Below are positions 3,407 to 34,679 of a stretch of 34,746 nt of DNA, in pieces. The stretch is taken from the IMG/VR virus record IMGVR_UViG_3300000929_000088, positions 1 to 34,746 of that record. One strand, given 5' to 3'. Made by a program: the position numbers and the translations under genes. Position 1 is the first letter of the stretch. Every line of letters starts with the position of its first letter. This stretch comes from a virus. The notes below the pieces were generated by a model. That model saw only the letters and a list, made by a program, of their open reading frames with translations. It did no database searches and had not been told where the DNA came from.

Positions 3407-4375
3407 TTAAATATTTGATTTGATTAGTTCCACAGATTTGACTGCTTGAGTCATTGCTGAGACACATGCCTTCTTGTCATCCTTGAGCCTTGTGGTCCAT
3501 CCCTTGATGTATGCTTGAGAGTTCTCATCATTATCTTTGGGATTGAGACCACAATCTCCAGACAAGTACATGGATGATATCTCTGCCACCAGTTCCTCCT
3601 TTGCATAGGTCTCATCTCCCCAAGTTTTCACATCTGTCAAGGTGTCTCTGTTCAGTCTGTCCTTGTGTCCAGTTGAGTGTGACATCTCATGAAATAGAGT
3701 CTTGTAGTATGTGTCAAGGTCACAGAAGTCTTCCTCATGGGGCATGTTGATTGAATCTGTAGAAGGTCTGTAGTAGGCTCCTCCTCCTCCATGTCCCAAT
3801 GATGGACCAGACTCTCCTCCAATGTATCCCAGAATCACTGCCTCTGCCATCTCATTTGGAGTCTGCTCAGTCCCCTCAATCTTCTTGTCCAGACCCTTTG
3901 GCTCAAGGCCATCAATCTGGTCAATGTTAAACACTGAGAAGTATCTCAATGTGAAACATTTTTTAAATCTCTTTGCAGAGAATGTCAGTCCAGCCTTCTT
4001 GATGTCCTCCAGAGTATTGTAGTACTTTTTTGACTCCTTGTCCAAATATGATATCTTCCAGAGAAAGACCTCAGTGGACTTCTCTCCTCTCTTCACTTGA
4101 CCACCATTGGCCTTGGCTTGGTTGTATGTCATCCACTCATTTGCACTGTATCCCTCTCCTCTCATCATGGCATTGAGCCAGAAAATATTGAATCCATTGT
4201 ATGCCTTCCCAGTTGCCCAATTGATTGGTCCAGATGAGTCTTTCCATCCCATAAACCATCTCAGACCTTCTTTCTCCAGACCAGCAATGACCACATCATT
4301 GATGCGGTCATAAATATCCTTAGAATCTGATGATGATGTCTTGATTGCTTTGCTTGATTTTGTGATTGTTTTCAT
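3407..4375 (-). CDS. ArdC-like antirestriction protein
   Basis: A 322-residue protein of the ArdC type: an N-terminal ssDNA-binding domain (about 20-150, with RWFMGWKDSSGPINWATGKAYNG-like features) and a C-terminal zincin-like metallopeptidase domain. The zinc site is visible as HEMSH (229-233) with a downstream acidic helix KEELVAEISS (259-268) giving the third ligand. Known ArdC proteins protect incoming DNA from host restriction and have ssDNA-binding activity. An early position and the genome's avoidance of GATC and CpG fit pressure from restriction. The start follows the motif AAAACACGAC, shared with two other early genes. Hairpins flank the gene on both sides, suggesting separate control of its mRNA. 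Confidence 0.85.
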   Translation of the reverse strand: MKTITKSSKAIKTSSSDSKDIYDRINDVVIAGLEKEGLRWFMGWKDSSGPINWATGKAYNGFNIFWLNAMMRGEGYSANEWMTYNQAKANGGQVKRGEKSTEVFLWKISYLDKESKKYYNTLEDIKKAGLTFSAKRFKKCFTLRYFSVFNIDQIDGLEPKGLDKKIEGTEQTPNEMAEAVILGYIGGESGPSLGHGGGGAYYRPSTDSINMPHEEDFCDLDTYYKTLFHEMSHSTGHKDRLNRDTLTDVKTWGDETYAKEELVAEISSMYLSGDCGLNPKDNDENSQAYIKGWTTRLKDDKKACVSAMTQAVKSVELIKSNI

Positions 4376-8881: not shown

Positions 8882-9376
8882 TTATTTCTTTTTTTGGTTT
8901 CTGAATCCTACTATCTCACTCATAAATTTATTCCTCTCCATTCTGTTGACCCATTCAATGAGTTCTGTCTTTGTATCGTCTTGAGTATTGTGATATGGAG
9001 CCTCAACTCCATCAGATGCAATCAGTCTCCAGATGGTAGCCTTTTTTGTGGTCCATCCAGAATCTCTGACCACTTGCTCCTTCTTGATTGTGTAGTCATG
9101 TCCATCCAGTGTGAATGTCCTTCCACCAGTTTTGAGTTTGACCTCTCCAGTGAAAAGGTATTCACTGATAAATGAGTTCAATCTGTCCAGTTCATTTTTT
9201 GCCTTGATTTCTCTGGAGCAGATTCTTGAGAGATTTTTGTCATTGTAGATGTTGGCAAAATGAGTGTTTAAAATTTGATTTTTTTGATGGATGATGTCAT
9301 CAAGTTTCTCAACTTTGTCCCAATAGTCTTGTCTCAATTTCTGCAAATTAATGCAGTCAAAAATTGCTTTTTTCAT
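8882..9376 (-). CDS. Hypothetical first gene of early operon
   Basis: A 164-residue protein. The N-terminal 75 residues are helical and probably coiled coil (KLRQDYWDKVEKLDDIIHQK region), followed by a beta-rich part with FTLDGHDYTIKKE and a helical C-terminus ending in NQKKK. Family unknown. It is the first gene of the early operon, behind the leader AAAAAAACACGAC, the regulatory inverted repeats at 9456-9551 and the five-copy element at 9586. Being first and presumably early, it could act in host takeover, but this is inference. Confidence 0.65.
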   Translation of the reverse strand: MKKAIFDCINLQKLRQDYWDKVEKLDDIIHQKNQILNTHFANIYNDKNLSRICSREIKAKNELDRLNSFISEYLFTGEVKLKTGGRTFTLDGHDYTIKKEQVVRDSGWTTKKATIWRLIASDGVEAPYHNTQDDTKTELIEWVNRMERNKFMSEIVGFRNQKKK

Positions 9377-9389
9377 GTCGTGTTTTTTT
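9377..9389 (-). promoter_or_regulatory. Early leader motif AAAAACACGAC before 164-aa gene
   Basis: Third copy of the early leader, ending at the ATG. A TATCTTTG (9406-9399) fitting the Bacteroidota -7 box lies just upstream, though I see no good -33 box at the right distance. Confidence 0.5.
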
Positions 9390-9455
9390 ATGTTTGGCCA
9401 AAGATAAAGTCAAATAAATCTTAATTCCTAATTTTTAGCAATAAATCTCACATTT

Positions 9456-9551: not shown

Positions 9552-9585
9552 ATTCTTCATATCTTTTATTTTTGATACTACCACC

Positions 9586-9629
9586 CCAGAAAGGTACTAA
9601 AGTCTCTTAAATCGTCTCTAAATGGCCTT
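9586..9629 (-). repeat. Five-copy intergenic element, copy B
   Basis: Minus-strand AAGGCCATTTAGAGACGATT followed by TAAGAGACTTTA and TTTCTGG. It follows the late terminator at 9674-9706 and precedes the early operon. The ACGATTTAAGAGACTTTA core is identical to the copy at 30844. Confidence 0.8.
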
Positions 9630-9673
9630 AAATCGAATTTGTGTTTTTTTCAAATTAGGCATTTTTCAAGCAT

Positions 9674-9730: not shown

Positions 9731-10399
9731 TTATGGAGTACTGTCTTCAAAGGTGATGATTGAATGACTGAGTGACCTTGTTGCCAATTCTCTCCACTCA
9801 TCTGTGAGCATTTTTTTGGCCTCTTCCAGATTGTCATGGAATCCAATTTCACACAAAATGGCTGGACAGTTACTCTTTGAGATTATGTAGAAATTGTCAG
9901 ATTTAACTCCTCTCCATTTTGTCATGTTGGCAAAATTCTCCTTGAATTCATCCTCCATGATGTCCACCAGTTGCTCTGTTTTTTTACTTCTCTTTGGTGC
10001 AATATGGAGAGAGATGCCTTTTGCATTTGCCCACTTTCCATCACTCCCAGCACCATTGGAATGGATAGAAATGAGGATACATTTTCTCTCTTTGTTCTCT
10101 TTGTTTGCTCTCCTCACTCTGTCTCCAAGTGAGATGTCATCCTCCTCTGGGACCAGAAGAGAGGCAGAGATTCTCATCCTTTTCAATTCATTGACCAGCA
10201 TGCTTGCAAGTATTCTGTTGTTCACTCCTTCATAGATGACTACCTTTCCAGTCACTGGGTCCTTTGGACTTTTCTTGCCCACTGTTGGATAGTATCCCTC
10301 TGGATGTTTGTCATTGATTAGCCAGCCACCATGACCAGCATCAATCAGATAGTGGTACTTTGACCTCATTGTCCAGTCCTCATGCTCTGTGTGTTCCAT
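9731..10399 (-). CDS. N-acetylmuramoyl-L-alanine amidase, endolysin
   Basis: A 222-residue Amidase_3 zinc amidase that cuts the bond between muramic acid and L-Ala of peptidoglycan at lysis. Zinc ligands and catalytic residues are visible: DAGHGG (His23), YEGVNN (Glu57), ISIHSNG (His113) and the late CEIGF (Glu184). There is no signal peptide, so it needs a holin. The frame is open to 10561, but the ATG at 10399 follows AAACCGAGAGAAA, the leader also seen before the capsid and tail-tube genes; 10369 is another possible start. It ends the lysis cassette and the operon, just before a strong terminator. Confidence 0.9.
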   Translation of the reverse strand: MEHTEHEDWTMRSKYHYLIDAGHGGWLINDKHPEGYYPTVGKKSPKDPVTGKVVIYEGVNNRILASMLVNELKRMRISASLLVPEEDDISLGDRVRRANKENKERKCILISIHSNGAGSDGKWANAKGISLHIAPKRSKKTEQLVDIMEDEFKENFANMTKWRGVKSDNFYIISKSNCPAILCEIGFHDNLEEAKKMLTDEWRELATRSLSHSIITFEDSTP

Positions 10400-10697
10400 T
10401 TTCTCTCGGTTTATAGTTTCTTGTGAACCATTGGAGGTCGATTCCAATGTGTCTGATTTGTTTGCTCTTGCAGATTTGTTGGACCTTATGGTCCCATTCT
10501 TTCTCCCACTTATGGAAAATTTCTGTATAACCTCCCACAGTATCCTCATCAAAAATCTCATACAAAAATGATGTATTAATCTCCTCTAAGATGTTCACCA
10601 CCTTGAGGGCCTCTTGTTCGTATCTTCTTTTTTGCCATCTGTTGCTCAGACCACTCAGTGGCTGGATTGCATCATCTGGCTGGATTGCCTCAATCAT
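10380..10697 (-). CDS. Hypothetical protein in lysis cassette
   Basis: A 105-residue hydrophilic protein starting at the ATG that overlaps the spanin stop (ATGATTGA). The frame extends upstream to 10730, but that part overlaps spanin coding. It is helical, with several Trp and an acidic-basic pattern (KWEKEWDHKVQQ), and without signal or membrane segments. Its end overlaps the amidase by 20 bases. Its position between spanin and endolysin suggests a lysis-related or late virion role; I do not recognise it. Confidence 0.55.
   Translation of the reverse strand: MIEAIQPDDAIQPLSGLSNRWQKRRYEQEALKVVNILEEINTSFLYEIFDEDTVGGYTEIFHKWEKEWDHKVQQICKSKQIRHIGIDLQWFTRNYKPRENGTHRA
10404..10412 (-). promoter_or_regulatory. 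Late leader motif AAACCGAGA before amidase
   Basis: The motif AAANCGAGA lies just before the amidase ATG at 10399. The same pattern precedes the major capsid and the tail-tube genes. It includes a CpG, rare in this genome, and it settles the amidase start. Confidence 0.55.
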
Positions 10698-11429: not shown

Positions 11430-11467
11430 TGTTAAAAATTTCACAATCCGGTGGTGTAAATTTAACA
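11430..11467. promoter_or_regulatory. Operator-like palindromic element before lysis genes
   Basis: Starts TGTTA and ends TAACA. Its first 24 bases (11430-11453) are exactly repeated, in inverse orientation, at 33799-33822 in front of the GP88 gene. It contains CCGG, one of the rare CpGs. In both places it lies about 20-25 bases before an A-rich leader and ATG, so a shared regulator or RNA structure is likely. The only GATC I noticed in the window is next to it (11422-11425). Confidence 0.6.
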
Positions 11468-11468
11468 T

Positions 11469-11813
11469 TTATTTAGTCATTATTTTCTCCACCATCTTCT
11501 GTATCTCTCTCACAATTCTCAATTCCATCTGGGCCATGTTGGTCTCCAGTTTCTGGTGTCCTTGGTGGACCTCTTTCTGTAGTTCTGTAAATTCTCCACG
11601 CATGTCATCAATTCTCTTGTGGAGTGCAGTGTTCATCTCCTTCTTTGCATCCTTGAGGTCTGCAAGTTGTTTCTCTTGCTCCAGATTTTTTGCTTGCTCT
11701 AGGTCAATTCTGCTCTTGAGTTTGACATAGGCTCCCACTGCTCCCACTATTCCAGAGGATGCACCAATCAGCACATCTAGGCCCACTCTGTAGTCTTCCA
11801 AATTTTCTGCCAT
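11469..11813 (-). CDS. Holin-like or lysis-associated membrane protein with coiled coil
   Basis: A 114-residue protein with one N-terminal hydrophobic segment (IGASSGIVGAVGAYV, about 17-31) followed by a long coiled coil (about 35-110, LEQAKNLEQEKQLADL then heptad repeats). Single-span proteins with such coils are found in phage lysis cassettes and may act as holin, holin regulator or membrane tether. The start shares one base with the upstream stop (TAATG). The operator-like element at 11430-11467 follows it, so it may close the tail group or open the lysis group. Confidence 0.55.
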   Translation of the reverse strand: MAENLEDYRVGLDVLIGASSGIVGAVGAYVKLKSRIDLEQAKNLEQEKQLADLKDAKKEMNTALHKRIDDMRGEFTELQKEVHQGHQKLETNMAQMELRIVREIQKMVEKIMTK

Positions 11814-24603: not shown

Positions 24604-24826
24604 TGGTTTGTTAAATTTTCAACGAGCCTCTAGCCCAGTGTTTATGGGCATCCAGCACTTCTCTGATTTTCCATACTACGACACCAGAAAAGCACTAAAG
24701 TCTCTTAAAACGCATTTAAATGCTATTTATGGCCATTTGCCACTTTTTCAATAATTCCATTTTTTTGAGCAAAAATCACCTTGAAATTGACTCAAAATTT
24801 GTCCACATTTAACTCCTAAATTTAGC
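24604..24826. other. Control region between tail-tube and tail operons
   Basis: About 220 bases without a gene. It holds the terminator of the capsid and tail-tube operon at its right edge (24827), the five-copy element (24684-24736), the 23-base block shared with 33871-33893 (24653-24675) and the GCCCA hairpin 24633-24649. Nothing else is evident. Confidence 0.7.
24684..24736 (-). repeat. Five-copy intergenic element, copy C
   Basis: Minus-strand GGCCATAAATAGCATTTAAA, then TTTTAAGAGACTTTA and TTTTCTGG. It is the most divergent copy, with about nine extra bases in the first half. Downstream it shares CAGCACTTCTCTGATTTTCC (on the plus strand) with the 33902 copy. Confidence 0.7.
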
Positions 24827-25994: not shown

Positions 25995-26693
25995 TTAACA
26001 TTTACAATTCTTTTTATACTTCTGGAGAGTGAATTGCAATTCTACTCCAGAGAGATTTGCATCAATGATGTTCTGGATGAATCCAGTCTCTTGCTCCACT
26101 CCAAATCTGGAGAAGGTAATGAGTTGAAATTCCTCCACATCATCAAAATTGGATGCAGCACTAATGGCCTCAATGAGGCTGCCTACTAGCTGAGTCATTG
26201 GCTGGACCACTTGGACTCTGTGGTCCTTTGTATAGTAGTCCTTGACATTGGTCTCATCAAGAATGAACAGTCTCAAATCAGATGCCCTCTCCAGTGATTG
26301 CTCCCTTCCAAAGATTCTCTCTCTGGTGGTCTCAAGCAGCCACACAATTGGGGTCTTGCTTGTCACATCATTGGAGGCAATGGTCCACTCTCTATTGGCA
26401 GCCAGTCTGGTCCCAGTGATAAAGTATGGAGATGGGAGGTCAAATGTACCCTCAAAGATAGGCTCTGGCACTGTGTTCCCCATGTATGTGGCATTGATGC
26501 TCTCATCAAGTACCACTCCAGTGATTCTCCACTGTTCACCATCACTCACTCTGGTGAGTATCTTTCCCTCTCTGGCCCACTTGGTTTGACAAAAGTCACC
26601 AGCACCAGCAGCAGTGTTGACACCAACAATCTGGATGTCAATCTTGGACACTAGGTCCTCCACTATTGTGCAGATATCTTCTATCATAGCCAT
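25995..26693 (-). CDS. Head-tail completion protein candidate
   Basis: A 232-residue protein between the connector and the tail-tube genes, where head-closure and tail-completion proteins are usually found. It has alpha/beta character, with WAREGKILTRVSDGEQWRIT and a Cys-containing end (KKNCKC). Overlaps the connector gene by 10 bases. The name of a family is not clear to me; the role is from gene order. Confidence 0.5.
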   Translation of the reverse strand: MAMIEDICTIVEDLVSKIDIQIVGVNTAAGAGDFCQTKWAREGKILTRVSDGEQWRITGVVLDESINATYMGNTVPEPIFEGTFDLPSPYFITGTRLAANREWTIASNDVTSKTPIVWLLETTRERIFGREQSLERASDLRLFILDETNVKDYYTKDHRVQVVQPMTQLVGSLIEAISAASNFDDVEEFQLITFSRFGVEQETGFIQNIIDANLSGVELQFTLQKYKKNCKC

Positions 26694-27196
26694 GTCACTA
26701 GTCCCTTTGGTACTCCATTAAAATCATCAAAATCATAGGCATCTGGATTCTTCCAGATATACATCTGAATGGCCTTGTAACTTCTCACACCATCATTGTA
26801 TCTGGTATAGATTTGAGTGTACAAGGAGCCAGCTACTTCTGAATTCTGACCCACTGGTCTGACATTCCCATTGGGAGTCATCTGGACAATCTGGTCCTTT
26901 GTGTACTCATAGTAAATGAATCCCATCAGCATCTCCTTAATTCCATCAGAATCAAGTATCCTCCATGGAAGGTCAATAGTAAGTTCGTCAAATATCTTGA
27001 TGAATCTTGGCTCAGTGGGAGTGCCACCTCCAAGAATCAAGTCTGCATTGAATAGATTGAATAAATCCACCCCCAGCAGTTCTCTCAAGTATCTTGGCTC
27101 ATACTTATCAATGTATGACTGTATCCTTGGAATGTCATACATTCCAGTGTGCAGTTCAAACTTGCCCTCATTAAAATCACTTACTTGTACAATCAT
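26684..27196 (-). CDS. Head-tail connector protein (DUF6712-like)
   Basis: A 170-residue, mostly helical protein. Features such as IPRIQSYIDKYEPRYLRELLG (about 23-43), LPWRILDSDGIKEMLMGFIYYEY and the YKAIQMYIWKNPDAYDF end are like the DUF6712-type adaptor proteins of Bacteroidota phages, comparable in role to HK97 gp6, which form a ring under the portal. It follows the capsid gene and a small gene, as expected. The start is preceded by an A/T-rich leader. Confidence 0.6.
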   Translation of the reverse strand: MIVQVSDFNEGKFELHTGMYDIPRIQSYIDKYEPRYLRELLGVDLFNLFNADLILGGGTPTEPRFIKIFDELTIDLPWRILDSDGIKEMLMGFIYYEYTKDQIVQMTPNGNVRPVGQNSEVAGSLYTQIYTRYNDGVRSYKAIQMYIWKNPDAYDFDDFNGVPKGLVTWL

Positions 27197-27480: not shown

Positions 27481-28716
27481 TTAAGGCTGCAGAAGTGTTG
27501 CTTTATCAAGTGCAAAATTACCCTTAACAAATGCACCCACATTGTTTGACTTAACATAGTGACAAGCACGAGCCTCACACAATACAGTCATCATGTTGCG
27601 TGTGAAATCGTCATTGATATATCCCACTTGAATATTCAAATCCTCTCTCATTCTCACGTTTGACTTCGTGAAGTCTCCAACTAAATAATCTCCAGATGTT
27701 ACTCCATTGTTTGCCACCACTGGCACTGATGCCACTCTTGTGATTCCATCTGCCATAGGCACAAAGATTGGAAGAGTGTACTCACCAGTGGATGATTTTG
27801 TCAATTCCATAGCTGCCAAATCTGCTGGATTCATCAAGATGTAGTTTGCCATGAAATCTGCATTGGCAATCTGTGCCATTGCCACTCTCAATACATCCAA
27901 ATCATTTGCAAAAGGAATGGCTCCCACAAATTGTGCTGCTGGAGTGAAAGGTTGTGCATAAGACAATAAACCAGTAAGATTGTCACCAATTCCATCACCA
28001 GACAAAATCTGCTCATCAAGTTTCAATTCTACAATCTCAATCAATTCATTGTTAATCTCTCCACGCATGAATGACAAATCATCCACCATCTCCTTGGATA
28101 CCTTAATCCATGCAGCCACTTTTTTCACCTCTGCAGATGCCTCTACAAGGTCAAAATCTGCTTGAGGCTTTGCCACACCTTCTCCTACCATTCCAGCACC
28201 ACCTTCTGGATTCTTTTGCTCAATCCAAACTGCATATTTGTTGGTGATTCCAGCACTGTTGGAAAGTTCTCTCATGAATGGCTTTCTGCGTACAATACGA
28301 GAAACACCAGCCTCAAGTTCTGACAGACCTACAGTACCACCAGAATAGTTGCCAGTGATTGTCATGTCTCCCACTGCTTTGATTGCAAGATTCATCACTC
28401 CACCCTTCTCTCTGATGCTCTTGATTGCATCAATGTTGTCTGCAAATGCCTTGGAGATTGCATCCTTCAATCCCAATTTTTTTGCTGGCTCATCTGCTTT
28501 CTCCTTCAATCCAGCAAATTTTGCCTCAAGATTGGTGATGGCTGACTTCATTGCAGTTGCCTCATCATTCTTGTCATTCTTTTCAATCATTGTCTTGATT
28601 GATGTGATGTCCTCCTTGATTGAGTTCATCTCTTCCTTTGATGCAGTTCCTTGCATCTTCTCAGTGATTGAGTTGTTTATTTTTTCAATCACTTGTTCTG
28701 GGGTCATGTTCTCCAT
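27481..28716 (-). CDS. Major capsid protein, HK97 fold
   Basis: A 411-residue major capsid protein that builds the icosahedral shell. The N-terminal 105 residues are charged and helical (delta-like scaffold domain, with long coiled coils), to be removed by the protease encoded next door. The HK97-like body follows (about 115-411), with GNYSGGTVGLSELEAGVSRI, AAWIKVSKEMVDDL, the EQILSGDGIGDNLTGL loop, NYILMNPADLAAMEL and the C-terminal ACHYVKSNNVGAFVKG. Length and order fit the family. The leader AAAAACGAGAGGAAAC precedes the ATG. A hairpin follows the stop. Confidence 0.92.
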   Translation of the reverse strand: MENMTPEQVIEKINNSITEKMQGTASKEEMNSIKEDITSIKTMIEKNDKNDEATAMKSAITNLEAKFAGLKEKADEPAKKLGLKDAISKAFADNIDAIKSIREKGGVMNLAIKAVGDMTITGNYSGGTVGLSELEAGVSRIVRRKPFMRELSNSAGITNKYAVWIEQKNPEGGAGMVGEGVAKPQADFDLVEASAEVKKVAAWIKVSKEMVDDLSFMRGEINNELIEIVELKLDEQILSGDGIGDNLTGLLSYAQPFTPAAQFVGAIPFANDLDVLRVAMAQIANADFMANYILMNPADLAAMELTKSSTGEYTLPIFVPMADGITRVASVPVVANNGVTSGDYLVGDFTKSNVRMREDLNIQVGYINDDFTRNMMTVLCEARACHYVKSNNVGAFVKGNFALDKATLLQP

Positions 28717-28734: not shown

Positions 28735-29505
28735 TTAAAAATTATTACCTACTTTATTCCAATCAAATGCTTTGGGAATGGTCTCCAAAATATCGGCTGA
28801 GTGACCCTTGACAGTCGGCTCAGTGATGGCAAGGTCCATCATTCTAGCATTTAAAAACTTCAACCTCATCTCAAGGTTGTATTGTCTTTCATCTGTTCCC
28901 TTCCCATTGAAAATGGACTTGGTGATGACTTGTATCTCTTTATTCAATTCAATAGCCAAATCTCTCCTCTCATGACCTTTGGCCACATCTATCACTCCAG
29001 TGTACTGGTTAGCACCAAAAGTCACCGCAGAGAATTCCCAGAGGGCCAATTCTGACACCTTGAAAAATCCTCCAGCATCAAGGCTCTTGTCCTCTATGAA
29101 TTCAATCTTGTCAGATATGTATTTGAATCCAATTGAATGCTCTCTAATGATTCCATCTTTGTAGTCCTCCAGTGCATCCTTTCCATCTGTAGAGTTCCCC
29201 AATTTTGCCACCACAAAGAGGCCATTGTTGTCTTCCTCCATGGTCATTGGAAGTCCTATCTGTTTCTGCCAGTCATGATGTCTGAGGAATGCAATCTGTC
29301 TATTTGAGCCAGATTGTGGACCTCTCTCAGCAAGTGACTTGGTGAAGGCTCCCTTGACAATCATGTCCCCATCTGAGTCTATTGTGTCAAAGGATGAGAC
29401 ATACATGGCCACCTCTCTTGATGAAAGGTCCAAGTCCTTCAATGCGAAGGCTCCCTTGATGCTATAGTCTCCCAGAGAGACTCTGCTTGATTTTCTCATA
29501 ATCAT
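28735..29505 (-). CDS. Prohead maturation protease, HK97 family
   Basis: A 256-residue serine protease that trims the capsid scaffold domain during head maturation (family U35/S78). Catalytic residues are visible: His in LRHHD (76-77), Ser in REHSIGF (Ser124) and Glu in ALWEFSAVTFGANQ (157). The N-terminal EVAMYVSSFDTIDSDGDMIVKGAF (31-54) is the typical start of the domain. It ends 18 bases before the capsid start. On its upstream side it faces the divergently oriented portal gene across a 107-base region with several palindromes, an unusual arrangement. Confidence 0.93.
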   Translation of the reverse strand: MIMRKSSRVSLGDYSIKGAFALKDLDLSSREVAMYVSSFDTIDSDGDMIVKGAFTKSLAERGPQSGSNRQIAFLRHHDWQKQIGLPMTMEEDNNGLFVVAKLGNSTDGKDALEDYKDGIIREHSIGFKYISDKIEFIEDKSLDAGGFFKVSELALWEFSAVTFGANQYTGVIDVAKGHERRDLAIELNKEIQVITKSIFNGKGTDERQYNLEMRLKFLNARMMDLAITEPTVKGHSADILETIPKAFDWNKVGNNF

Positions 29506-29612
29506 GTGAATTATTATACAAAATTAACTAATTTTGTGCAGATATGATTAAAATCTAATCAATCATTGATTAAAAAATGCTCAAAATCATAAGCAAAATA
29601 TCTGCATAGCGT
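29506..29612. promoter_or_regulatory. Palindrome-rich divergent region between protease and portal
   Basis: Three inverted repeats are packed in 88 bases: ACAAAATTAACTAATTTTGT (29518-29537, perfect 9-bp arms), TAATCAATCATTGATTA (29556-29572, perfect 8-bp arms) and an outer pair GCAGATAT (29538-29545) / ATATCTGC (29598-29605) that brackets the second. The genes on either side are divergently oriented. Divergent promoters with regulator sites, or a structured DNA site, are possible. No five-copy element is present here. Confidence 0.6.
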
Positions 29613-30833
29613 ATGGGACAAGGGAATGACAATACATTCTGGGCCAATTTTTTTGGACTGAATCCAAAGGAGAACCAGAGACACATCAATCAGTGGGGAC
29701 TGAATTGGGGAAGTTCAATAGAAAACAGAGTCTGGGGAGTCAAGCAGCCCATCTGGATAGACACACATGATGCTTATCTCCATTATTTGGAAGTCCCAGA
29801 GTTGAGGACAGTCATCAATAAGAGAGCAGACATGATGGCCTCTGCCTTTCCAATTCTAGTAGATAGGGATGGAGAGAGAGTGGAGAATCACTGGGCCATT
29901 GACCTAGTGGAGAATCCAAATCCCACACAGTCATGGAGTGATGTGATATTCAGTCTCTCAGTAAATGACTCATTGTACAGTAATGTGTTCGCCTATGCAC
30001 CAAAGAGGTCCTTTGGAGTGGTCAATCTATTGGTCCCACTTCCTTCTGACAAGATTGTCATCAATACCACTGGGAAGAGACTCAGACAGATGGACATAGA
30101 GGGTCTCATTAGAGACTTCCAATTCTGCTATGATGATGGAAACAAGGACACACTGGAAGTGGATGAGGTCATCTATCTGACCACCCCAGATGGTCTGAAC
30201 ATCATCAATCCCAACAGTCGAATGGATGCCCTCAAGTATCCCCTATCAAATATCAGAGCAGCCTACAACAAAAGAAATGTCCTTCTGGAGAACATTGGAG
30301 CCATAGGAATCCTCTCAGCACAGAAGGGAGACATGGGAGGAGCAATCCCAATGACCCCAGAGGAGAAGTATGACATCCAGCGTGACTGGTACAGAAGGTC
30401 AAAGGATGAATTGATTATCACTGAGGCAGATGTCTCATGGCAGCCCATGTCATTCCCTACAAAAGACCTCATGCTCTATGAGGAATTAACTGCAGACAAG
30501 ATGGCCATTGTGGATATCTTCGGCCTCAACTCCTATGTGTTCAGCCAAGAGAAGGGAGCCACATTCTCCAATGTGAAGGAAGGTCTGAAAATGGCATACC
30601 AGACATCCATCATCCCAGACACTGAGGCCATGTATGATGGACTCTCTGAGCAGCTAGGTCTCACAAAGGATGGATTGAGATTGGTCCCAGATTTCACACA
30701 TGTGCAAGTGCTGGCAGAAGATGAGAATGAAGCAGCTAAAGCATTGGACACAAGAGCAGCAGCACTCCTCAAGATTCAGCAGTCTGGAGTCATATTGACA
30801 GATGAAGAGATGAGACTCATCCTCAATCTATAG
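29613..30833 (+). CDS. Portal protein, HK97 type, inverted orientation
   Basis: A 406-residue portal forming the dodecameric DNA gate of the head. The phage_portal family pattern is visible in ELRTVINKRADMMASAFPI (64-82), the WAIDLVENPNPTQSWSDVI block, DEVIYLTTPDGLN, and the C-terminal VDIFGLNSYVFSQEKGATFSNVKEG region, then a helical crown with DEEMRLIL. An in-frame stop (29607-29609) just before the ATG fixes the start. It is the only plus-strand gene, though it sits in the standard place between terL and the protease. Its base composition matches the rest of the genome, so foreign origin is unlikely. A five-copy element follows it in the same flipped orientation. Confidence 0.93.
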   Translation: MGQGNDNTFWANFFGLNPKENQRHINQWGLNWGSSIENRVWGVKQPIWIDTHDAYLHYLEVPELRTVINKRADMMASAFPILVDRDGERVENHWAIDLVENPNPTQSWSDVIFSLSVNDSLYSNVFAYAPKRSFGVVNLLVPLPSDKIVINTTGKRLRQMDIEGLIRDFQFCYDDGNKDTLEVDEVIYLTTPDGLNIINPNSRMDALKYPLSNIRAAYNKRNVLLENIGAIGILSAQKGDMGGAIPMTPEEKYDIQRDWYRRSKDELIITEADVSWQPMSFPTKDLMLYEELTADKMAIVDIFGLNSYVFSQEKGATFSNVKEGLKMAYQTSIIPDTEAMYDGLSEQLGLTKDGLRLVPDFTHVQVLAEDENEAAKALDTRAAALLKIQQSGVILTDEEMRLILNL

Positions 30834-30843
30834 GATGCCCATA

Positions 30844-30887
30844 GAGGCCCTTTAGAGACGATTTAAGAGACTTTATCTCATTTCTGG
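30844..30887 (+). repeat. Five-copy intergenic element, copy E, inverted
   Basis: Plus-strand GAGGCCCTTTAGAGACGATT followed by TAAGAGACTTTA and TTTCTGG. It lies between the convergent portal and terL ends and is opposite in orientation to the other four copies. Downstream TCTGGAC...GTCCAGA (30882-30906) forms a perfect 7-bp inverted repeat, and TCCAGACCCCTAT is shared with copy A. Confidence 0.8.
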
Positions 30888-30908
30888 ACCCAAACTATGT
30901 CCAGACCC

Positions 30909-32336
30909 CTATTGATTCACGCTGGAATGTCTAAAAGTTCTCAGCATGGACTGCATAAACATGGCCAGTCCAGCAGCACAATCTGGAGCATCATCATTCC
31001 GATTCTTGCCCTCCTTGGAGAATGAGTACATGTTCTCCATGAATTGGACACAGTCTGGAGTCTCTCTCTGGACCCACTTGAAAGTGTTGAGGATGAATGC
31101 ACTCTGCATGATGATTCTGGTCATCTTGTTTGTAGTGTTGTGGACTTGGAGAATCTTGGCCCTTGTCTGCCTTGACAATTCCCTTGAGTACATGGCTCCC
31201 ATGCTATTGGATTCCACTCTGCAATATGAGACCCTCCACTTGTTCAGTATGGCTGCAGCCAGTGGGATAGTCACATCAGTATTCTCTCTGGTGTAGATGT
31301 AGTCCACAATATAAATCTCTGACCCTATCACTGCACCCACTATCAGAGCCATGTAGTCATTCCCTTGGTCTGCCACATCTATGTAAGCAAAGGAGCCATC
31401 CATGAGAGTCTCTCTTCCATTGTGTTGGGCATTCATTGGCTCTGGTGTGACTGCTCTGATGTAGTCCTCTGGAGATACAATCTGCATCCCTCCAAAGAGT
31501 CTGCCCTCCATGTCCACTGGCTGCTGCTGATACTCTGCCAGCCATATCTCTTTGGCCATCCTTGACCTCTTCTCATGATACTCCTCAGAGGTCATCACGT
31601 TCTCACAGAAGGACCTATCATGGTCATCCAGTGCTGAGACCACAATACTCTCCTCATAATCACCACCAGCCATGGCCTCTCCAATGACATCAGATACAGA
31701 CCATCTGGTCCCTATGTCTATCCTTGAGCATCCACTCTCCATCCTTGAGTCATGAGTGGCACTCTTCCACTGTTTGATTGAGTCATTCTTTGTGTCACTC
31801 AGTGCATCCTCAAGGCCTCTGTATAAGTCATCTGTGATGGCTACCTTGGTGGCTCCAAATCCTATGATTGTCCCACCTACTCCAGCACCAAAATAGGACA
31901 CCATCCTTGCCTTGGTAGTGTTCCATCCTTGGAGATTCTTTTTGTCATCTGAGAGCCTCACTGGGAAGACCTCCTTGAATCTATCACTGTTCACTATGGC
32001 CCTCACATCATAAGAGAATTTAAGATACAGAGTGGCAGTGCATGTGTTCCTCATCACTGAGTCAGATGGATTCCTCCCCAATGTCCATGCACAGAATAAA
32101 GATGTGAGATATGACTTCCCAGCACGAGGAGGCATGGATACAGATAGGCTCTTGATGGCTCCCTCTTCCACTCTCTGGAAAGCATCTGCCACCTCCTTGA
32201 GGAATGGTCTGGCCTCAAAGAATTCCTTGTCATAGTACAGACAAAACTGCCAGAGATTCCTTCTGGATACTTCCCTCATCACTATGAGTCTCACATGGTC
32301 CTTAGATGTCATCATTGGGTCCAGATTTGGATTCAT
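30909..32336 (-). CDS. terL: Terminase large subunit
   Basis: A 475-residue DNA-packaging motor. ATPase: Walker A MPPRAGKS (68-75), Walker B VAITDD (165-170), coupling-type GTRWS (209-213). Nuclease (RNase H-like): Asp320 in YIDVADQGND, Glu375 in RVESNSMG, Asp448/449 in RNDDAPD. All key acids are present, so packaging and cutting should work. The start overlaps the small subunit by 35 bases. The stop is inside the repeat region behind the portal gene. Family is clear (Terminase_6-like C-terminus). Confidence 0.95.
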   Translation of the reverse strand: MNPNLDPMMTSKDHVRLIVMREVSRRNLWQFCLYYDKEFFEARPFLKEVADAFQRVEEGAIKSLSVSMPPRAGKSYLTSLFCAWTLGRNPSDSVMRNTCTATLYLKFSYDVRAIVNSDRFKEVFPVRLSDDKKNLQGWNTTKARMVSYFGAGVGGTIIGFGATKVAITDDLYRGLEDALSDTKNDSIKQWKSATHDSRMESGCSRIDIGTRWSVSDVIGEAMAGGDYEESIVVSALDDHDRSFCENVMTSEEYHEKRSRMAKEIWLAEYQQQPVDMEGRLFGGMQIVSPEDYIRAVTPEPMNAQHNGRETLMDGSFAYIDVADQGNDYMALIVGAVIGSEIYIVDYIYTRENTDVTIPLAAAILNKWRVSYCRVESNSMGAMYSRELSRQTRAKILQVHNTTNKMTRIIMQSAFILNTFKWVQRETPDCVQFMENMYSFSKEGKNRNDDAPDCAAGLAMFMQSMLRTFRHSSVNQ

Positions 32337-32922
32337 TTAGTAGGTCCAGAAGTTGGTCAGTAGAGTACCCAGATAGGTCTGGAGAATCAGTCTCCACCTT
32401 GACCTCTTGTCTCTCTATGTATCCCCTCTCCTTCCCCTTGGTCTTGAGGTAGAATATCACTGCAGCAGTATTCCCTCTTCCTATCAGTTTGAGCAGTTGA
32501 GACTCAGCGAAGTCCAGAGCCTTATTGGACAGTGATTCATAGGCCATCTTATACTCTCTGGACTCCCTCATCCACTTGTAGTGATTCGTTCTGCTTATGC
32601 CCAGCGTATCACATGCAGTCTGGACTATCCCCATGGACTGCTCCAGTGCTGCCAGTAGATTAATCTGGAGAGGATTCAAATCAGTCTCCTCCAGAATCAT
32701 GACCTCTGGAGATTGGCTCACCTCTGGGACCTCCTCAATCCTATGCTTGCATAATACCTCATTTTTCTGGTCTGGTTGGTCAAAATCGCAAAAATCGCTT
32801 TTTTGTATGTTCACTTCTGTACATCTCGCGTGTGTTTTTTCACCTTTTCCTTTTTTCATTTTTTCTCTTTTAGTAGTTTCTGGAGGCACTTCTGGACCTA
32901 TCTGGACTCTTGTCTCACTCAC
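32302..32922 (-). CDS. terS: Terminase small subunit candidate
   Basis: A 206-residue protein directly upstream of, and overlapping, terL. The middle has a helix-turn-helix (QTACDTLGISRTNHYKWMRES, about 109-129) as in phBC6A51-like small terminases that bind the packaging site. Helical stretch SNKALDFAESQLLKL and FYLKTKGKERGY follow, typical of the family. The first 65 residues are basic and poorly ordered, and part of their DNA (about 32785-32860) is CpG-richer than the rest. It would recognise the phage DNA for packaging. Confidence 0.8.
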   Translation of the reverse strand: MSETRVQIGPEVPPETTKREKMKKGKGEKTHARCTEVNIQKSDFCDFDQPDQKNEVLCKHRIEEVPEVSQSPEVMILEETDLNPLQINLLAALEQSMGIVQTACDTLGISRTNHYKWMRESREYKMAYESLSNKALDFAESQLLKLIGRGNTAAVIFYLKTKGKERGYIERQEVKVETDSPDLSGYSTDQLLDLLNESKSGPNDDI

Positions 32923-33172: not shown

Positions 33173-33763
33173 TTATTTGCTGAAATTATCAAGGAGGCAG
33201 AAGTTGACTCTGGGAGTCCTTGCTTGCTCATCACATGTGTCAATGGGTCTGCCATTGGCTTGCTCCTTGGTCTTTATTATCTCCACATTCTTGAGGTCAT
33301 GCTCTTCAATCAGTTGGTCATGTTTGCCTCCTCTACTTGCAGTCAATATGAGATTCTCTGGAATTGAATCCAATCTGTTGACCCAGTATGTGAGGCTCTT
33401 CGTATAGGCCCAGAATTCCACAGATGGATGCTCCTTGCATATCTGGAGCCACATGTCAAAATAGTCTTGAGAATAGAAGTCACCACTCATGTGGATTCTG
33501 ATTGCATTGGCTTGAGATGGAATGACTGGGATTCCTCCAGACCTTAAAAAGTCAAAGTTTTTCCACCTATGCTCCCTCACTGCTGGGAATCTTTCTTGCA
33601 TTGCAGAATAACATCTGTAGGCATTGCTCTTGTTTTCAAATTTGCCAGATATTCTATCCACCTTGACCAGACATTCAAGAGCAAAAGGACAAGAGAATCC
33701 ACTTGGAAGATTCCACTCATAGACTGTCCCTAGATAGTATTTTGTCTTCTTCAAAAATTTCAT
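33173..33763 (-). CDS. GP88-like phage protein
   Basis: A 196-residue protein that resembles the Gene product 88 family: YEWNLPSGFSCPFALECL (about 14-31), a CYSAMQE block, IRIHMSGDFYSQDYFDMW (near 91-108), WAYTKSLTYWVNR, LTASRGGKHD and a late TCDEQA. The biochemical role of the family is not established. The frame is open to 33892, but the upstream part runs through repeat sequences; the ATG at 33763 has the leader CCAAAAAATCACAAA and is preferred, 33823 being an alternative. Palindromes at 33785-33822 lie just upstream. Confidence 0.65.
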   Translation of the reverse strand: MKFLKKTKYYLGTVYEWNLPSGFSCPFALECLVKVDRISGKFENKSNAYRCYSAMQERFPAVREHRWKNFDFLRSGGIPVIPSQANAIRIHMSGDFYSQDYFDMWLQICKEHPSVEFWAYTKSLTYWVNRLDSIPENLILTASRGGKHDQLIEEHDLKNVEIIKTKEQANGRPIDTCDEQARTPRVNFCLLDNFSK

Positions 33764-33784
33764 TTTGTGATTTTTTGGATGAAT

Positions 33785-33822
33785 TGTTAAAATTTTAACA
33801 CCGGATTGTGAAATTTTTAACA
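33785..33822. promoter_or_regulatory. Operator-like palindromes upstream of GP88-like gene
   Basis: TGTTAAAATTTTAACA (33785-33800) is a perfect 16-bp palindrome. It adjoins a 24-base block (33799-33822) repeated exactly, in inverse orientation, at 11430-11453 near the lysis genes. Together they form a site of about 38 bases ending about 20 bases before the A-rich leader. Confidence 0.65.
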
Positions 33823-33901
33823 TTGTGTTATTTTTATTTTTCGCTCTGTATCCCAGTGGTAGTGCGGATTCAGCACTTCTCTGATTTTCCATAGTGAGAT
33901 A

Positions 33902-33945
33902 CCAGAAATGGCATAAAGTGTCTTAAATCGAAGATAAAGGGCCTC
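33902..33945 (-). repeat. Five-copy intergenic element, copy D
   Basis: Minus-strand GAGGCCCTTTATCTTCGATT followed by TAAGACACTTTA and TTTCTGG. Downstream it shares a 23-base block (33871-33893) with the 24684 copy. It lies between the ParB-like gene and the GP88-like gene, upstream of the terminase operon. Confidence 0.8.
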
Positions 33946-33966
33946 TATGCTCATTCTGGTGTTTTG

Positions 33967-34449
33967 TCAATTGTGTTCAAAGTTGCTCACTTTTGCATGT
34001 TTCAATCTGGGCAATTTTGGGGTCCAATTGTACTGCTGAAAGTTCTCACAGTCCTCACACATCATCTCAATCTTCTCACCTTTGGTCATGCCCAAAACTT
34101 GGACCACTTCCACTGAGTTCATTCCAGCAGCTTTGTGGATTTGTAGGATTCTGGTCCCAGATATGACATATCCACTCTCATCAATTATGATGTCTCTGAA
34201 TTGTCCTATCTCATGCCAGTCTCTCTCCTCCACTCTTCTGACTGCCTTCTCAAATGTCTTGGCTCTGATGCCTTCCAAGTATTTGATTTTCGTGTATGGA
34301 TATCTCTCATCTGTACAGATGAATCTATCCTCTGAAAGTGTGAGGATGTCATCATCTTTGATGTGAGGATACTTCCATGACCAGTATCTTGGGTCATCTT
34401 GATTGGTGGTCAATTGACTGATGAGCATCTCCTTGTGAATTATCTCCAT
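33967..34449 (-). CDS. ParB-like domain protein
   Basis: A 160-residue protein starting at the ATG that overlaps the upstream stop by 10 bases (MEIIHKEMLI); the open frame further up (to 34647) overlaps the membrane protein and is unlikely to be used. The middle (about 75-120) has FRDIIIDESGYVISGTRILQ and SVEVVQVLG, the pattern of a ParB-type nuclease or DNA-binding fold (hydrophobic strand, gly-x-R/T-R, then strand). The C-terminus has a CEDC pair. In phages such domains occur with methyltransferases or as lone regulators. The full family features are not complete, so the call is tentative. Confidence 0.5.
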   Translation of the reverse strand: MEIIHKEMLISQLTTNQDDPRYWSWKYPHIKDDDILTLSEDRFICTDERYPYTKIKYLEGIRAKTFEKAVRRVEERDWHEIGQFRDIIIDESGYVISGTRILQIHKAAGMNSVEVVQVLGMTKGEKIEMMCEDCENFQQYNWTPKLPRLKHAKVSNFEHN

Positions 34450-34679
34450 AACCAGTACAAGAATGAGACTACAAGGATGACCATAAAGGACCTCAGTATT
34501 GAGATTCCAATGTACTTCATGTCTTGATAATATTCCAGAATATCTGGACCATTGCCCATGACCATGAATACCATCAAGAATCTGTCCATGATGAATGTGA
34601 CAAAGAAGATGGGCATGAGGATGATTCCCAATGCCATCATGTACCACTTGCCTCCTTTGTTTTTGACTTCTTTCTCCAT
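34440..34679 (-). CDS. Small membrane protein
   Basis: A 79-residue protein with two hydrophobic segments (MMALGIILMPIFFVTFIMD and GISILRSFMVILVVSFLYWL) and a basic N-terminus (MEKEVKNKGGK). The ATG at 34679 is preceded by GTAAAAAAAAAAGC, the A-rich leader; a start 11 codons earlier is less likely. It is the first gene in transcription order. A role in membrane alteration, superinfection exclusion or lysis is possible, but the sequence gives no more. Confidence 0.6.
   Translation of the reverse strand: MEKEVKNKGGKWYMMALGIILMPIFFVTFIMDRFLMVFMVMGNGPDILEYYQDMKYIGISILRSFMVILVVSFLYWLWR

Follow-up and report, generated by a model that had tools for sequence, protein, structure and literature searches.

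The head genes of tailed phages follow a widely conserved order and usually lie on one strand. How, then, should a head block be read in which the portal gene alone faces the other way? This question is raised by the window analyzed here, a 34,746-base virus record whose minus strand carries nearly all long genes: within its head block the gene for the portal, the ring through which DNA enters the capsid, is the sole plus-strand gene, while those for the small and large terminase subunits (terS, terL), the head maturation protease, and the major capsid protein (MCP) are all on the minus strand. An initial annotation, made from the letters of the window, offered three readings of the 1.4-kb segment holding the portal and a short repeated element: that it was inverted in evolution, that it inverts actively, or that it is an assembly error. 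Our comparison with relatives shows that the opposite-strand portal layout is real, old, and widespread among uncultured phages related to this one. In our judgment, it is probably a fixed, inherited layout in which the portal is a unit driven by a promoter of its own, placed back to back with that of the capsid operon.

Organization of the Head Block

The gene order terS–terL–portal–protease–capsid, typical of HK97-type modules, had been proposed for the window together with the isolation of the portal on the plus strand, and family assignments with PHROGs and Pfam bear out both (Table 1). A similarity search of phage DNA with the window returned no match, and no title retrieved from the literature (titles, with parts of PMC8776804 and PMC11267871) describes an opposite-strand or divergently transcribed portal gene. 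Elsewhere in the window, positions 3407–4375 encode an ArdC-like anti-restriction protein (PF08401, PF18818), and a palindrome-like sequence of 41 nt is present twice, in inverted orientation (11430–11470 and 33782–33822, 88%), as a possible operator of a phage regulator.

Table 1. Features of the window, with positions, strands, and supporting remarks.
Feature	Position	Strand	Remarks
terS, terminase small subunit	32302–32922	−	PHROGs/Pfam
terL, terminase large subunit	30909–32336	−	Convergent with portal
Portal protein gene	29613–30833	+	PHROG 2662, E 3e-30; Pfam PF04860, E 3.5e-24
Protease(−)/portal(+) divergent intergenic region	29506–29612	.	107 bp
Head maturation protease	28735–29505	−	Divergent from portal
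MCP, major capsid protein	27481–28716	−	PHROGs/Pfam
TAATTTTG, candidate sigma-A type −7 box for portal	29529–29536	+	TAnnTTTG consensus (PMC9723704)
TAATTTTG, candidate −7 box for protease–capsid operon	29519–29526	−	2 bp from portal box
GATTAAAATCTAATC, 15-bp palindrome-like motif, candidate operator	29546–29560	.	Just downstream of portal box
Repeated element copy	30832–30905	+	Directly 3′ of portal, in portal's direction
Repeated element copy	74–146	−	3′ of 213–578(−)
Repeated element copy	9564–9640	−	3′ of endolysin 9731–10561(−)
Repeated element copy	24662–24739	−	Between head/adaptor-side and tail genes
Repeated element copy	33879–33957	−	3′ of 33967–34647(−), before GP88-like gene

Distribution and Inheritance of the Portal Strand

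A comparison of the portal strand in related phages, suggested by the initial annotation, came out clearly. The first scan of viral contigs recovered nine loci with 36–83% portal identity, all of which share the layout of the window: in 9/9 the portal is opposite every terL, protease, or MCP gene found adjacent. Wider scans, which confirmed at least 572 matches, provided a working set of 196 distinct loci besides the window, named phage records among them. With three loci unlabelled for strand (L106, L133, and L137), the portal opposes its neighbors in 110 of 194 labelled loci and is co-oriented with them in 84, counts that are not frequencies in nature, as the loci are the best 80 matches per scan and include near-copies. 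One locus of the opposite class, L123, was later judged a probable chimera (see below) and was omitted from the larger portal tree and the extended promoter-box counts. The one relative found by scanning prokaryote genomes is a MAG contig from Flavobacterium with a co-oriented portal, and in six of six named records (Freya_2, Danklef_1, Arctus_1, phi18:1, phi10:1, and ctUhy936) the portal shares its strand with the annotated head or terminase genes. In seven loci (L004, L005, L061, L067, L071, L085, and L091), the major capsid gene is relocated behind relatives of the window genes at 25995–26693 and 26684–27196.

The two strand states are not scattered over the phylogeny. A portal tree of 92 rows needed four strand changes, with a shuffled mean of 30; a larger tree of 183 rows (108 opposite), leaving out far outgroups, the chimera, and the short locus L100, needed three, with a shuffled mean of about 57, and its starred branches force three. 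Trees of MCP (67 rows) and TerL (71 rows) required two changes each. All were quick searches without bootstrap, unrooted, with long branches flagged. So few changes make portal orientation a clade-level trait, inherited over deep clades, and the MCP and TerL trees indicate that exchange of the portal alone does not account for it. Of the three initial readings, inversion in evolution stands as an old, lineage-wide state, found in relatives with as little as 36% portal identity, but not as a change private to this contig.

Stability of the Orientation

Because two strand states occur in the group, and one co-oriented locus (L044) is nested among opposite loci at 80% portal identity, the segment might be an invertible switch that flips within the population and so connects or disconnects the capsid operon. 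We regard such a switch as very improbable. Clusters drawn at ≥90% portal identity contain mixed strands in 0 of 16 cases (60 members), and at 80% identity in one of 17 (L031 with L044), against a background of only three changes over the whole 183-row tree. The initial statement that no long inverted repeat joins the two junctions proved correct in a dedicated search: the best ungapped score was 7, below the shuffled mean of 7.8, and 98 of 100 shuffles did at least as well. No site-specific recombinase was matched among the proteins scanned, a set without small ORFs, though such an enzyme could be the host's. Furthermore, the portal usually has its own candidate promoter box in either orientation (see next section) and would thus not be cut off by a flip. 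The proposal of active inversion thus finds little to sustain it.

An assembly error or chimera in the window contig is still more improbable. Errors of this type do seem to occur in the collection, and L123 provides an instructive example. Compared with L092, to which it is 93–97% identical, L123 has a flipped portal, breaks inside the portal and terL, and a lost protease, with overlaps of 8–9 nt at the joints; it is probably a chimera or misassembly and serves as a yardstick for such errors. The window looks unlike it: the junctions are intergenic and the genes intact, the same intergenic junctions are found in two relatives from other metagenomes (L001 and L002), and about a hundred further loci have the same layout. 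What remains looks like a stable layout passed on by inheritance; neither a recent inversion, nor a switch, nor a mistake in assembly seems to account for it.

Candidate Promoters between Portal and Protease

Flavobacterial sigma-A recognizes TAnnTTTG at −12 to −5 (PMC9723704), and the same −7 consensus applies in Bacteroides (PMC7366714). The sequence CAAAATTAACTAATTTTG at 29519–29536 holds one TAnnTTTG box per strand, back to back, and is the only such pair in the 34.7-kb window. The initial annotation had considered a promoter for the capsid operon to be missing, a view that is not confirmed, given the candidate −7 box on the protease side of this pair. No clear −33 box could be established for the candidate promoters; scans for sigma-70 promoters and terminators rose only modestly above shuffle levels and were set aside. 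A face-to-face TAnnTTTG pair is also present at 9389–9406, before the gene at 8882–9376 and near the start of the replication block.

The boxes recur throughout the group. Among the divergent intergenic regions of 35 distinct loci, a box is found on the plus strand in 33, on the minus strand in 30, and on both in 29 (means of 200 shuffles: 3.3, 3.3, and 0.3, respectively). Likewise, the 100 nt upstream of the portal in 81 distinct opposite loci contain the plus-strand box in 73, its mirror in 72, and both in 66, against shuffle means of 11.3, 9.1, and 1.4 (maximum of 5 for both); 15 of the 81 are without one or both boxes, L009 being without either. In co-oriented loci, the portal box is found in 45/60 upstream regions, while the mirror box, and hence the pair, is found in 1/60. 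The mirror box thus tracks the presence of a divergent gene. Of 31 co-oriented loci, 12 show a box no more than 100 nt from the protease, and in L044, co-oriented amid its opposite relatives, separate boxes precede the portal and the protease. The portal box of the window starts 84 nt before the ATG, farther out than the 26–33 nt most often seen in opposite relatives, which, like the upstream regions lacking boxes, speaks against a promoter role. From their consensus and distribution, we infer that the boxes act as working promoters.

The spacing of the two boxes bears on another reading, namely that the two symmetric copies of TAATTTTG serve chiefly as an operator, a palindrome to which a protein binds, and not as two promoters. 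The pair is indeed palindromic, and a second palindrome-like motif adjoins it. However, the geometry of the boxes varies while both persist: 20 of the 81 opposite loci have them back to back (2 bp apart in 19 of these 20), as do 0/60 co-oriented loci, 14 of 81 have them face to face, and otherwise they are spaced apart. Moreover, the mirror half disappears when there is no minus-strand gene to serve (1/60), as expected of a protease-side promoter. We therefore hold the operator reading to be quite unlikely and retain that of two divergent promoters.

The adjoining motif, GATTAAAATCTAATC, has a distribution of its own. Its 13-base core occurs 24 times near portal starts and nowhere else in 1.58 Mb of loci, counting both strands. 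An operator common to the group was considered and rejected, since an exact core is limited to three opposite loci and 19 co-oriented ones. When viral contigs were scanned, the motif turned up in at least 117 stretches; among the matches listed, 20 place it at a portal belonging to this group, one has such a portal with the motif elsewhere, and 96 have no such portal. In some members of the group, the motif may serve as an operator.

The Portal as a Probable One-Gene Unit and the Element behind It

At its 3′ end, the portal converges on terL across a gap of variable length: in 82 opposite loci with both genes, this is ≤30 nt in 17, 31–200 nt in 22, and >200 nt in 43. ORFs of at least 60 amino acids lying in the gap are on the terL strand in 96 of 97 cases, which makes the portal probably a one-gene transcription unit and the gap probably a place where accessory genes collect (e.g., in L018, L058, and L087).

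In the window, this gap is occupied by one of five copies of a repeated element (Table 1). As the initial annotation had observed, the portal-side copy is flipped relative to the four others, with which it forms inverted pairs (I1–I4) that join 30832–30899 to 80–136, 9574–9630, 24672–24728, and 33890–33946 and are 74–88% complementary; a profile finds all five copies with E-values of 6e-17 to 3e-20, having been built from these same copies. Every copy is 3′ of a gene and oriented as that gene is read, and the relative L014 repeats this arrangement with three copies, one behind the portal, each 3′ of a gene in the gene's direction. An element that goes with the end of the portal unit would explain why it is flipped together with the portal. 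Alternatively, the flipped copy could be a promoter, reading antisense into terL behind the portal, in place of a transcript-end or unit-boundary element. We give this alternative serious weight, though below that of a boundary element: three of the four other copies are also upstream of a minus-strand gene in the window (the fourth is at the window edge), whereas the consistent 3′ placement of the five copies and of those in L014 speaks against it, and behind the portal there is no plus-strand gene to drive.

Two further roles for the element were tried and rejected. As a conserved RNA, it showed no consensus pairs in eight copies, and no Rfam family matches it; the fold z-scores of the five window copies (0.25, 0.46, −3.22, −2.63, and −1.04) leave just two that fold distinctly better than shuffled sequence. 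Nor does it accompany the portal in general, since most opposite relatives have no repeated element there: among 52 portal 3′ flanks, only 12 match elsewhere on their own locus, mostly over 14–28 nt. Two copies of the element share the start of a mini-ORF, and the GP88-like gene (33173–33892, PF17338), whose called start overlaps the repeated element, probably has its real start later than the first ATG.

Proposed Explanation and Significance

We propose that the portal would be transcribed as a one-gene unit from its own host-type promoter, of the Bacteroidota sigma-A kind, standing back to back with the one that serves the protease–capsid operon, and that its transcription would run convergently toward terL. 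The phage group probably infects Bacteroidota. In the sampled tree, the portal strand has changed about three times, and a portal carrying its own promoter could change strand without loss of expression.

What such an arrangement would do for the phage is a matter of speculation. The portal-to-capsid ratio might be set by competition of RNA polymerase between the neighboring sites, or by transcripts that continue out of the terL operon and run antisense to the portal. PMC12825309 reports basal transcription too weak for polymerases to compete at the five promoters tested, but also that one direction, when strongly activated, can repress the opposite one, which limits the ratio-control idea to strong promoters. 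A bolder version is that the portal is a self-contained, separately regulated promoter–gene cassette, whose symmetric bidirectional sigma-A promoter forces the polymerase to choose between the portal and the capsid operon and is adjoined in some members by a portal-specific palindromic operator; this would hold the ratio of the portal ring to the much more plentiful capsid protein, leaving the strand of the cassette evolutionarily free. We consider this version doubtful.

A large group with a lone opposite-strand portal and about three strand changes amounts to a natural experiment on the purpose of co-transcribing portal and capsid genes, and on the means by which a phage balances a component present in 12 copies against hundreds of capsid subunits. 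The group would also add an example of divergent promoters that are symmetric and based on the −7 consensus of Bacteroidota.

Comparison with Known Systems

Compared with the HK97-type head module of tailed phages, the window has the same gene order and the same families, but its portal alone is on the other strand, so that the genes are not co-oriented. By portal similarity, the nearest named records are Forsetiviridae, namely the Polaribacter phages Freya and Danklef, at 27% identity over 88% of the query; all their head genes seen are on one strand, unlike those of the window.

The closest parallel to the intergenic region is found among the bidirectional bacterial promoters of Warman, Grainger, and colleagues (PMC12825309). 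These are pseudo-symmetric, with a core box on each strand, and are expected to bind polymerase in two orientations; the window pair likewise has a core box on both strands, close together, and the same expectation applies to it. The boxes of the window differ in being of the Bacteroidota −7 type, non-overlapping, and 2 bp apart. From their positions and the placement given in PMC9723704, the start-to-start distance would be ~27 bp, compared with the 18, 10, and 23 bp common in E. coli according to PMC12825309.
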